A stretch of 5,921 nucleotides of DNA, taken from assembly GCA_021820805.1 (NCBI GenBank), contig JAKADF010000240.1, forward strand, positions 1 through 5,921, in the 5' to 3' direction. This DNA is from Bacillota bacterium (GTDB lineage: Bacteria > Bacillota > Bacilli > Alicyclobacillales > Alicyclobacillaceae). This document shows, piece after piece, positions 3,659-5,921 of the stretch. The position numbers were made by a program, and so were the translations under genes. Every line of letters starts with the position of its first letter. Positions within the stretch are counted from its first letter, which is position 1. The notes beneath the pieces were generated by a model, which was given only the letters and a program-made list of their open reading frames with translations, did no database searches and was not told where the DNA came from.

Positions 3659-3835
3659 CTAGCGTTCTTCCTCTTCAACCAGGTCAATTGTACCGAGCAG
3701 TACATGTGCTGCACCAAATGCTGCGAGTGACCATGGGATTACGGGATTCACGTTGCGGCGGTTTACTAGTGCAAGCCCTGTAGCCGTGACAGCTGTTCCG
3801 ACAATAGTTGGTATCAACCCTTCCCGTACATTCAC
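3659..3835 (-). CDS. Small two-helix membrane protein, 58 aa
   Basis: The open frame extends back to an ATG at 3889, but the best start is GTG at 3835. GGAGGTG (3848-3842 on the minus strand) lies 6 bases before it, whereas the ATG has no comparable SD. The resulting 58-residue protein begins MNVREGLIP and has two hydrophobic stretches, about 7-24 (Gly/Thr/Ala-rich) and 31-50 (with Trp35 and His44). They are joined by a basic NRRN turn, and the protein ends in acidic DLVEEEER. By the positive-inside rule the loop should face the cytoplasm. It resembles short conserved membrane proteins of Bacillales that have sometimes been mislabelled 'asparagine synthase'; this is from memory. It has no catalytic motif, and its function is unknown. 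It is transcribed towards the aldolase gene. Confidence 0.72.
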   Translation of the reverse strand: MNVREGLIPTIVGTAVTATGLALVNRRNVNPVIPWSLAAFGAAHVLLGTIDLVEEEER

Positions 3836-3957
3836 GACCAACACCTCCGTAAGTGAGCTAGAGTCCACTGTGTAGTATGTTGTCAGCATCGGAAATATAT
3901 GCCGTCTGAGATGATTTGCCTGTTTATATCAAGCTGTATATTTTTTTCGGATTTGTA

Positions 3958-4030
3958 GGTGGATATGTGGGTAAGTCTGTGGATATCTTTGTGGATAACA
4001 CAATCTATCTGTGCATAAGTTTGTGGATTA
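3958..4030 (+). promoter_or_regulatory. DnaA-box array, 12-bp spaced, all one orientation
   Basis: Read on the plus strand as complements of TTATCCACA, the sites are TGTGGGTAA (3966-3974), TGTGGATAT (3978-3986), TGTGGATAA (3990-3998, perfect), TGTGCATAA (4010-4018, fits TTATNCACA) and TGTGGATTA (4022-4030). A weaker GGTGGATAT (3958-3966) overlaps the first. Starts are 12, 12, 20 and 12 bases apart. DnaA is the initiator that binds such 9-mers, and clusters outside oriC titrate DnaA or let it regulate transcription. The regular unit could also be read as plasmid-like iterons. No dnaA or dnaN gene is near, so this is not taken as the chromosomal origin. DnaA binding itself is inferred. Confidence 0.7.
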
Positions 4031-4092
4031 CTTTTTAAACCACAAATATAGTACTCCGTGTATATCGATTATATTTTGGGAATATAACCCAA
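4020..4092. repeat. AT-rich dyads between DnaA-box array and promoter
   Basis: Three inverted repeats lie here: TTTGTGG/CCACAAA (4020-4026/4040-4046, including the last DnaA-like box), TTATATT/AATATAA (4069-4075/4081-4087) and TTGGG/CCCAA (4076-4080/4088-4092). The last two are interlocked, the loop of one being an arm of the other. The stretch is strongly AT-rich and could be an unwinding region or an operator. No gene is visible between 3836 and 4175. Confidence 0.4.
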
Positions 4093-4107
4093 TGGTTAAG
4101 ATAGTCT

Positions 4108-4137
4108 TTGACCATTTTTAATCTTTCCGGTTACACT
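4108..4137 (+). promoter_or_regulatory. Sigma-A-like promoter of the 378-codon gene
   Basis: TTGACC (4108-4113, 5/6 to TTGACA) and TACACT (4132-4137, 4/6 to TATAAT) are 18 bases apart. They predict a start near 4144, just before the SD GGGGAGGTGG and the ATG at 4176. The promoter lies about 80 bases downstream of the last DnaA-like box. Confidence 0.5.
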
Positions 4138-4175
4138 TGGATTAAAACCCATAACTCCGAAGGGGAGGTGGATTC

Positions 4176-5312
4176 ATGAAAACATTAAAAGGTTTTGATG
4201 CAATCGATCTTGCTGACAGGTACAACATACCCCTCTTGGATCTTGAAACAAAAAAGGAAATTTCAGCTGAAAGGGCAATGGTACAAATCCACCAGCGCCA
4301 CGATCCGAGTATTTTTGTTATCCAAAACTGGCCGGATTCTGATGAGGAAGCTGAGGCAGTTATCCTTAAGGAATTCCAGAAGGCTCTTAGAGAAAATCGC
4401 TGGGCAGAGGCAAGTTTACTCGCAATTAACGCTTCTTTGAATGGCAGTATGCCTATTCACCTTAGAGCTGCTGAGCTTGCAGCAGAAAGACTTGTCAAAC
4501 AAGGCAAGTTAGAACTTGTAGAAATGGGCAAAGACTTTAGTTTGTATCGTATTCCGCGAACTGTTCGTTTTTCAGAAGAATTTCTGAAAGAGTTGCGTGG
4601 CATCGTGTGTGAGGAATGCGCGATACTCGACGTTGAAGGGCCTTTTCACGAAACTTGTCTCATGAATCTATTTGATTATTTGCAAGAAAAGAATTTTACG
4701 GTTCATGACATTATTCAAGTCGAGGAAGATCACCATCCCGAAACTAGATTTCGTATGTCGCGCCCGAATATTGGGATGCAGTGGCTTTCTAGAACTGCAT
4801 CAGCTACAAAATCACGCCTAAAAAGTGTTGTGCAGCCTATCCTAAGTCAGGATAGCGATGGACTGCATAACAAAGCAAAGAAACCTGATGAAAAACCTGT
4901 AAGCCAAGTGTCATCTGATGAGCATGTGCAGTATCGGCAACAGCCGTCAGACTCAGACGAGTCAGTTCAAGTCAGCAGAACCGTTGCGCCTACGACGGCC
5001 TGGACTGAGACAAGCCAAAAGCAGCGAATCAGTAAACAAGAGTTAATTTCGTATATGCAAAGTGTTGAAATTGTTGAGGATCCGTACGAGATTGACAGCT
5101 TAAAGAATGAAAATGCAGAACTGCAAAGACTACTTCGGGAAAAAAAGCAGGATTACGAAAAAGTCGAAAAGCAGCGTGTATTTTTCGAGAAACAATGCCA
5201 AGAATTGCAACGCGATTTAGATGTGCTCGTTCAAGCCATGCAAATTGCAAAACGGCGTGATTCGAAGTCGGACAATATTGTTGATGTGGTTGATGCTACA
5301 TATACCGAGTAA
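4176..5312 (+). CDS. Unknown protein: possible winged helix, CCHC cluster, C-terminal coiled coil (378 aa)
   Basis: Not recognised. ATG at 4176 follows a very strong SD (GGGGAGGTGG, 4-base spacing). Visible parts: an N-terminal mixed region (1-55). Then helices at about 60-110 with RAAELAAERLVKQGKLELVE followed by DFSLYRI (119-126), which has the look of a recognition helix and wing of a winged-helix DNA-binding domain. Then C145-x2-C148-x9-H158-x2-C161, a possible zinc site. A polar Ser/Gln/Asp-rich linker, probably disordered, spans about 222-285. A charged coiled coil covers about 305-360 (SLKNENAELQRLL onward), and the tail is acidic. There is no signal peptide or membrane segment, so it is cytosolic. 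It is monocistronic between its own promoter and a strong terminator, and downstream of the DnaA-box array, which hints at a role tied to replication or chromosome biology. All domain calls are by eye and tentative; that the gene is real is very likely. Confidence 0.88.
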   Translation: MKTLKGFDAIDLADRYNIPLLDLETKKEISAERAMVQIHQRHDPSIFVIQNWPDSDEEAEAVILKEFQKALRENRWAEASLLAINASLNGSMPIHLRAAELAAERLVKQGKLELVEMGKDFSLYRIPRTVRFSEEFLKELRGIVCEECAILDVEGPFHETCLMNLFDYLQEKNFTVHDIIQVEEDHHPETRFRMSRPNIGMQWLSRTASATKSRLKSVVQPILSQDSDGLHNKAKKPDEKPVSQVSSDEHVQYRQQPSDSDESVQVSRTVAPTTAWTETSQKQRISKQELISYMQSVEIVEDPYEIDSLKNENAELQRLLREKKQDYEKVEKQRVFFEKQCQELQRDLDVLVQAMQIAKRRDSKSDNIVDVVDATYTE

Positions 5313-5434: not shown

Positions 5435-5921
5435 ATGTTGCAGGATGTGGTAAAGTGGCTTGACAAAGCATTTCAAGCCTTCTTTCGACGTGTGAGGGCA
5501 GGAGAAACACCTGGCTATCCGCGTTTCAAGTCTACAGGCAGATACGATTCCTTCACGTACCCACAAGGTGGCTATTCGATAAACGGTAATAAATTAGGAC
5601 TCTCAAAGATTGGTGAAGTAAAAATCAAGCTCCATCGCCCGCTGCAAGGGAAAATCAAAACATGCACTGTCATCGTGAAAAACGGGAAATATTATGTTTG
5701 CTTTTCATGTGAAGTGGAACAGAGGACGTTGACTGAATCTAAAACCACTGTTGGGATTGATCTTGGTGTCAAGCATCTTGCCATTACGTCCGATAGAGAG
5801 TTTTACAAACACCTGAAATTTTTGCGAGAATCCGAACGAAAACTGTACAGAAAACAAAGGTCAGTGTCGCACAAGAAGAAGGGTTCTGCTCGTCGTCACA
5901 AATCGATTTGTGAACTGGCGC
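5435..5921 (+). pseudogene. tnpB: TnpB (IS605 OrfB) RNA-guided nuclease gene, 5'-truncated, runs off window
   Basis: The frame from ATG 5435 is open for 162 codons to the window edge. The protein starts inside the TnpB family pattern at LQDVVKWLDKAFQAFFRRV, continues through PGYPRFKS (27-34), YPQGGYSIN and a beta-rich segment, and reaches TVGIDLGVKHLAI (105-117). There Asp109 is the first RuvC catalytic residue. It is followed by a basic helix (FLRESERKLYRKQRS). Full TnpB has roughly 80 more residues before LQDV. Upstream in this frame there is a TAG at 5405-5407, and no N-terminal TnpB sequence appears in any frame, so the 5' end is truly missing. No good SD precedes the ATG. RuvC-II, the zinc finger and RuvC-III would lie beyond the window. 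TnpB is an OMEGA-RNA-guided DNA nuclease that helps retain IS200/IS605 elements; this copy is probably inactive. Confidence 0.85.

Follow-up and report, generated by a model that had tools for sequence, protein, structure and literature searches.

Why should a dense, phased array of DnaA-box-like sites stand in a stretch of DNA with no recognised replication gene? The stretch analysed here (5,921 bp, hereafter the window) contains neither dnaA nor dnaN by its ORF list, Pfam or NCBIfam, and the initial annotation's remark that neither gene adjoins the array therefore holds within the window. According to the part of the B. subtilis literature consulted, too few regions are known in that species to tell which features (box sequence, orientation, spacing or flanks) favour ATP-DnaA (PMC4447404). 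Natural copies of one geometry with varying spacers and flanks make a ready comparison set, and the array layout constitutes a testable design for DnaA storage or resetting in Firmicutes.

Five candidate DnaA 9-mers within one mismatch of TTATCCACA were found again, all on the minus strand, starting at 3966, 3978, 3990, 4010 and 4022 and thus spaced 12, 12, 20 and 12 bp from start to start over a span of 65 bp. One is perfect and one fits TTATNCACA, exactly as first described. The scores below derive from a weight matrix built from sites with at most one mismatch in 16 Alicyclobacillus dnaA loci.

3966..3974, minus strand: candidate DnaA box 1, TTACCCACA, one mismatch, matrix score 11.5
3978..3986, minus strand: candidate DnaA box 2, ATATCCACA, one mismatch, 3 bp from box 1, matrix score 13.1
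3990..3998, minus strand: candidate DnaA box 3, TTATCCACA, perfect, 3 bp from box 2, matrix score 17.0, the top site of the window
3998..4009, no strand assigned: 12-nt segment separating the 8-nt core of box 3 from that of box 4, reading ACACAATCTATC in plus-strand orientation
4010..4018, minus strand: candidate DnaA box 4, TTATGCACA, fitting TTATNCACA, starting 20 bp from box 3, matrix score 12.7
4022..4030, minus strand: candidate DnaA box 5, TAATCCACA, one mismatch, 3 bp from box 4, matrix score 10.3

When all window sites were ranked by the matrix, the five boxes took ranks 1, 2, 3, 4 and 6, and the five-box score of 64.6 compares with a maximum of -21.5 in 200 simulations; the offsets in this comparison come from the window itself, and the same consensus served to select the matrix sites. 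The whole window holds six boxes at one mismatch or fewer against a shuffle mean of 1.53, a count reached by 3 of 200 shuffles. Local density is stronger evidence than this whole-window count: 1,000 first-order Markov simulations never placed more than two same-strand boxes within 65 bp (two were seen in 16 of them) against the five of the window, which bears out the claim that the density lies above chance. Several DnaA boxes close together are one mark of an extra-oriC cluster, and the array has them. It likewise fits the fuller definition used below for the 12-12-20-12 geometry, namely boxes at 0, 12, 24 and 44, ACRC after the box 3 core and a fifth box at +56.

To the left of the array lie hemerythrin-like, queC, queE, queD and KDPG-aldolase genes and a small divergent ORF; to the right lie a 378-codon gene and then a partial IS605-type tnpB. 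An Rfam search at the gathering threshold gave no match, and the reading of the array as an RNA element was dropped. The features closest to the array are as follows.

3659..3889, minus strand: small ORF of 76 codons from its listed ATG, left of the array and pointing away from it
4108..4137, plus strand: sigma-70-like promoter match, TTGACC-18-TACACT, between the array and the 378-codon gene
4176..5312, plus strand: putative 378-codon gene of no assigned family, starting 146 bp right of the array

The small ORF has no Pfam or NCBIfam match, and by eye a GTG near 3837 following a GGAGGTG motif may be its true start. As a partner of the array it was rejected, having a match in 1 of 16 genomes (A. 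fastidiosus), where the 9-kb stretch L092 carries no dense cluster. The promoter match is weak, one being found where shuffles lead one to expect 3.8.

This arrangement suggested a DnaA-controlled promoter element, in which array-bound DnaA would tune the small ORF and/or the 378-codon gene with the replication state, as at the B. subtilis sda promoter. The array does have divergent start codons on its two sides and the promoter-like match about 80 bp downstream, and B. subtilis DnaA is described, in the published text available, as a transcription factor at some regions. The protein of the 378-codon gene has no Pfam family and a single NCBIfam match, to GrpE, at 16.6 bits against a cut-off of 152. 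C145, C148, H158 and C161 (CxxC...HxxC) are invariant in 21 aligned relatives. The structure model (mean pLDDT 71.6) predicts an N-terminal half that, judged by eye from its helix-strand order, is winged-helix-like, and a C-terminal coiled coil; searched against the PDB, it gave nothing at E ≤ 0.001, the weak matches including winged-helix proteins. A large protein search returned 25 relatives besides the query, the named ones belonging to Alicyclobacillus, to Alicyclobacillaceae and, once, to a MAG called Thermoflavifilum. Scanning genome contigs for the gene yielded 19 loci (18 Alicyclobacillus records and one Bacillota MAG), and it is present in 33 of the 59 genomes of the order, the order being taken via A. 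pomorum.

The initial annotation had named loss of the sites and their spacing in close relatives that keep this gene as a refuting outcome, and the sites are indeed absent there. Among the 17 of the 19 loci that contain the start of the gene, 15 have no box at one mismatch or fewer within 600 bp upstream and two have one. In a second set of 30 loci scanned up to 1,500 bp upstream, 22 have no box and eight a single one, with no four-box match close to the geometry in any of them; the two sets share species and are not independent, and at L111 and L121, where the upstream contig sequence is shorter, some coding sequence falls within the scan. Two upstream boxes thus occur at 0 of 17 and 0 of 30 orthologue loci, on which a tie between the array and the 378-codon gene was rejected and which counts against the promoter element. 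Since the array recurs beside other genes, this absence of sites speaks against the link to the gene and not against DnaA binding. As side observations, the A. pomorum orthologue (L001, 5401-11823) is flanked by dacA-type and guaB-type genes, next to yaaC and pdxS types, and in three genomes (G008, G019 and G022) the orthologue sits about half a chromosome away from dnaA. In the window itself, an IS605-type TnpB frame (5435-5920, Pfam) adjoins the 378-codon gene and runs off the contig end.

Recurrence of the geometry was examined at several levels. A search of 16 genomes for box doublets at 12 bp matched 139 places, where the reversed pattern matched 24, and the 12-12-20 spacing was first met in A. 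fastidiosus and A. suci loci fetched via such doublets. A degenerate four-box pattern, drawn up after these first copies had been seen and comprising ACRC after the box 3 core with up to three mismatches allowed, matched 10 places in 6 of the 59 genomes of the order, while its reversed control matched none. Seven of the ten places match without mismatch, two with one and one with three, this last being a weak match in A. macrosporangiidus (G003) beside a redoxin gene. Besides the window, the geometry is found at four other loci across five genomes, including A. fastidiosus, A. suci and A. dauci, and in the A. macrosporangiidus weak match. The other 53 genomes of the order, A. pomorum included, have no array at three mismatches or fewer.

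Since the pattern was designed after the first copies had been seen, an open-spacing search matters. With relaxed boxes and two free spacings of 9 to 36 bp, it returned 71 triplet rows in 31 of the 59 genomes and 10 rows for the reversed control. Fifty-eight of the 71 rows were tabulated after dropping 13 AT-rich or simple-repeat rows (three in G009, one in G005:C93, one in G047 and eight in G057:C10). In these 58 rows, which overlap, include dnaA loci and do not give independent counts, the commonest triplets are 12-9 (17 genomes), 12-12 and 12-20 (five rows each), 12-32 (four) and 12-30 and 24-20 (three each), and the commonest adjacent spacings are 12 (47 times), 9 (19), 20 (11) and 32 (10).

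Of 398 genomes sampled across the class, without G008 (the A. fastidiosus genome), four gave a match to the five-box pattern, and all four belong to the 59 of the order. A strict triplet search of 398 class genomes, with boxes too stringent to recover the arrays at the four loci described below, matched in 49 genomes against six matches for the reversed control. By eye on the spans, the strict 12-20 triplet occurs within the order only in G006, and the strict 12-21 triplet occurs in five genomes outside the order's 59 (G371, G292, G149, G092 and G358) and in G057 within it. The idea of a general module of Bacilli was not supported by these class-wide searches, which are a weak test of it. The array was not described in the literature searched on DnaA boxes, Alicyclobacillus, clusters, spacing and phages, a coverage that takes in few subscription journals.

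These results bear on whether the array is a product of chance or a site for another protein that happens to resemble DnaA boxes. DnaA binding of the array is a prediction from its letters, which gives that explanation some room, but the density is unreached in the 1,000 simulations, the same spacing recurs with no match for the reversed pattern, and the gaps are those favoured by E. coli DnaA; we regard it as highly improbable.

The four other loci, named alpha to delta, lie beside different genes (G008, A. fastidiosus; G007, A. suci; G021, A. dauci).

alpha, in G008, G022, G019 and G007: next to a kinase gene of APH type (by Pfam)
beta, in G008 and G022: on the 3' side of the gene for a ribonucleotide-reductase small chain
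gamma, in G007 and G019: a GntR/LacI-type regulator on one side, with a GH130 gene on the other side in G019
delta, on an A. dauci plasmid record: upstream of a pirin gene

The left-hand neighbour at beta is LysR in G008 but a ketoacyl-synthase-like ORF, named by eye, in G022. The delta contig (contig 2 of G021) matches plasmid NZ_CP104065.1 with 100% identity over 6,001 bp. By coordinates and assuming circular chromosomes, the window-type arrays of G008, G022 and G019 are 0.3-1.4 Mb from dnaA. Neighbour calls were made on the longer ORFs, short ORFs beside or over the arrays being left out of the judgement. On these calls at least one gene has the array upstream of it in the window, at alpha of G007 and G019, at gamma of G007 and at delta of G021, as a DnaA-controlled promoter element would require, but convergent 3' ends flank it at alpha and beta in both G008 and G022 and at gamma in G019. 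Taken with the orthologue loci, this makes the promoter element a possible but rather unlikely explanation.

Conservation was measured ungapped from the anchor, with flanks of 80 bp on each side, and the flank identities are consequently underestimates. At alpha, box identity is 96% for G008 against G022 and 84-87% for either of them against G019 or G007, with spacers at 75% and 60-65%, respectively, while flank identity is 17-36% to the left of the array and 23-31% to its right in five of the six species pairs; in the sixth, the close pair G019 and G007, the array is 100% identical and the flanks 51% and 85%. Beta shows 93% for boxes, 95% for spacers and 39% and 50% for flanks, and gamma 91%, 85%, and 28% and 30%. 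With a small gap allowed, MAFFT aligned well about 40 bp to the right of the beta array and to the left of the gamma array. A conserved array in diverged flanks, as judged from these alignments, is clear at alpha only and partial at beta and gamma.

The common anatomy was derived from the window together with a single array for each of beta, gamma and delta and, for alpha, one from each of two species groups. Offsets 0, 24, 44, 12 and 56 show the smallest mean mismatch to TGTGGATA, the next-best offset having 3.8. The core of box 3 is separated from that of box 4 by 12 nt with an A+T content of 50-75%, the first four of which are ACAC or ACGC, or ACTC in the G022 copy of alpha; the A. macrosporangiidus weak match reads AGCC after the box 3 core. 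A fifth box at +56 is present in the window and at alpha, beta and delta, and absent from gamma and the weak G003 match. In alpha of G019 and G007, box 1 is weak and the fifth box has mismatches in its second half.

We then considered the proposal that the array is the captured origin of a plasmid or island, its repeats being iteron-like. Tandem DnaA-trios, TA(G/A), beside a DnaA box are a functional feature of oriC. Runs of at least three tandem trios were found at 0 of 10 arrays and at 6 of the 8 dnaA loci scanned (of 19), the stretches scanned around arrays (3701-4300 in the window and 200 bp either side of the anchor for the nine others) being shorter than the dnaA loci. In four dnaA loci with boxes listed, the trios are 21-22 bases from the box. 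A strict trio run is missing from the dnaA loci of G008 and G021, both array-bearing genomes, and for this reason and the shorter stretches the strength of the trio test is moderate. With no trio motif nearby, the window array probably does not fire as an origin.

Phased direct repeats are what the array shares with plasmid iterons, and one copy does stand on the A. dauci plasmid record. The repeats, however, fit the boxes of dnaA loci, no rep or other replication initiator gene was recognised in the window (which ends about 1.9 kb right of the array), and none is annotated in 65 of the 149 kb of the plasmid record. A blastn search with 111 bp found one weak record among plasmids (E 0.9) and 12 among phages, the lowest-E phage match (34 bp, E 0.007) lying inside a gene annotated as a replication initiator. 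In viral contigs, a doublet with a third box at 18, 19, 20 or 21 bp occurs in 1, 3, 20 and 29 contigs, several contigs of the 19 and 21 sets sharing one array; the occurrence of such patterns in viral contigs lends the captured origin some support, a viral preference for the 20-21 bp spacing being no more than suggestive. On balance the captured replicon, or plasmid iterons, proposed at the outset was not supported, and we give it only a very slight chance.

What remains is the other proposal of the initial annotation, a DnaA-titrating or regulating cluster, and this is the best reading in view of the fit to the dnaA-locus matrix, the 3-bp gap at three of the four junctions, the recurrence and the conservation. 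We propose, with a probability of roughly 0.55, that the window array is an extra-oriC DnaA-box cluster which, through putative binding, would sequester DnaA and tune initiation. That the array is not linked to a gene speaks for a role on DnaA itself, and the occurrence of a similar layout beside different genes suggests a stand-alone tuner of DnaA supply and not an origin or a single-gene switch. In B. subtilis, deleting six extra-oriC clusters is reported to cause early initiation, which was read as lost DnaA sequestration (PMC5295017, PMC13220808, PMC11019786), and the analogy makes DnaA sequestration the likeliest role of the window array. Against the titration reading, a roughly 10-fold overproduction of B. 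subtilis DnaA is reported to cause no over-initiation. Such dissenting published statements, together with the partly kept flanks, hold our confidence at the level given.

The array is best read as a fixed-geometry variant of the Bacillus extra-oriC clusters. These too are described as dense boxes outside oriC, one of them between convergent 3' ends, to which several authors assign sequestration (PMC5295017, PMC13220808, PMC11019786, PMC4447404). Recurrence and place set the array apart: one five-box 12-12-20-12 geometry appears at unrelated loci, and not at tsaD/gcp.

For the layout on the DNA, E. coli offers the closest comparisons. E. coli DnaA is reported to favour in vivo box pairs 2-3 bp apart (PMC11317965), and three of the four array junctions have the 3-bp gap of the double DnaA box described, for example, upstream of purH, polA and mutH/DARS2; the array differs in having five boxes and one 11-bp gap instead of a single pair. 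The oligomerization regions of E. coli oriC, according to the text consulted, likewise have co-oriented boxes 2-4 bp apart, domain III contact being thought absent across 9 bp (PMC5742627), whereas the array has no trio motif nearby and no replication gene recognised in the window. From the preference for 3-bp gaps and the presumed loss of contact across 9 bp we infer a three-plus-two layout: boxes 1-3, head to tail at 3-bp gaps, would carry a short DnaA oligomer of three protomers and boxes 4-5, in the same arrangement, one of two, and the 11-bp gap would place box 4 about two turns of the helix from box 3. DnaA, probably ATP-DnaA, would thereby be held away from oriC, and initiation would be delayed or tuned independently of the neighbouring genes. 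DnaA occupancy, oligomer layout and effect on initiation at the array are all inferred.

A related proposal goes beyond storage. At a datA- or DARS-like locus, a DnaA oligomer of fixed geometry would hydrolyse or exchange nucleotide and so reset DnaA. E. coli datA, DARS1 and DARS2 are, like the array, non-coding DnaA-box loci whose spacing is described as strictly kept; a strict geometry would also seem to exceed the needs of simple titration, and the balancing of ADP- and ATP-DnaA in B. subtilis is stated to be open in the text available. Orientation tells against the comparison, DARS box I being opposed to boxes II and III while the five array boxes are co-oriented. So does IHF, which datA is reported to need: B. 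subtilis is said to have no IHF, datA or DARS, and a dependence on IHF is not expected in a Firmicute. We consider such a resetting locus improbable. Unlikely as well is the broader proposal of an Alicyclobacillus platform of fixed geometry, holding DnaA oligomers three-plus-two and head to tail at varied genome places regardless of neighbours, which would set the nucleotide state or supply of DnaA and serve as a functional Firmicute counterpart of datA/DARS.

A separate DnaA-box cluster was found 3' of tsaD/gcp in 12 genomes, with the same neighbours by blastp. It accounts for 12 of the 35 doublet-holding loci, which were chosen for their doublets, and the count thus does not give the frequency of tsaD without the cluster.

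tsaD-cluster loci: L068, L070, L071, L073, L074, L076, L079, L081, L083, L085, L087 and L090

Pfam confirmed TsaD in the two neighbourhoods tested and ThiL-type AIRS domains in the one tested; the other neighbours we take to be tsaE, tsaB and rimI. The spacing is 12-9 in 7 of the 12. In B. subtilis this place is occupied by a strong DnaA region, gcp/ydiF, which is listed with sda, ywcI, ywlC and yydA among the strong regions outside oriC in the published text consulted. Many Alicyclobacillus genomes keep the classical Bacillus cluster, and some also carry a window-type array. Finally, in A. fastidiosus a 42-bp stretch with two DnaA-box-like ends occurs in 12 identical copies on contigs C1 and C2 of G008 (for example C1:24040-24081), perhaps as part of an insertion element.
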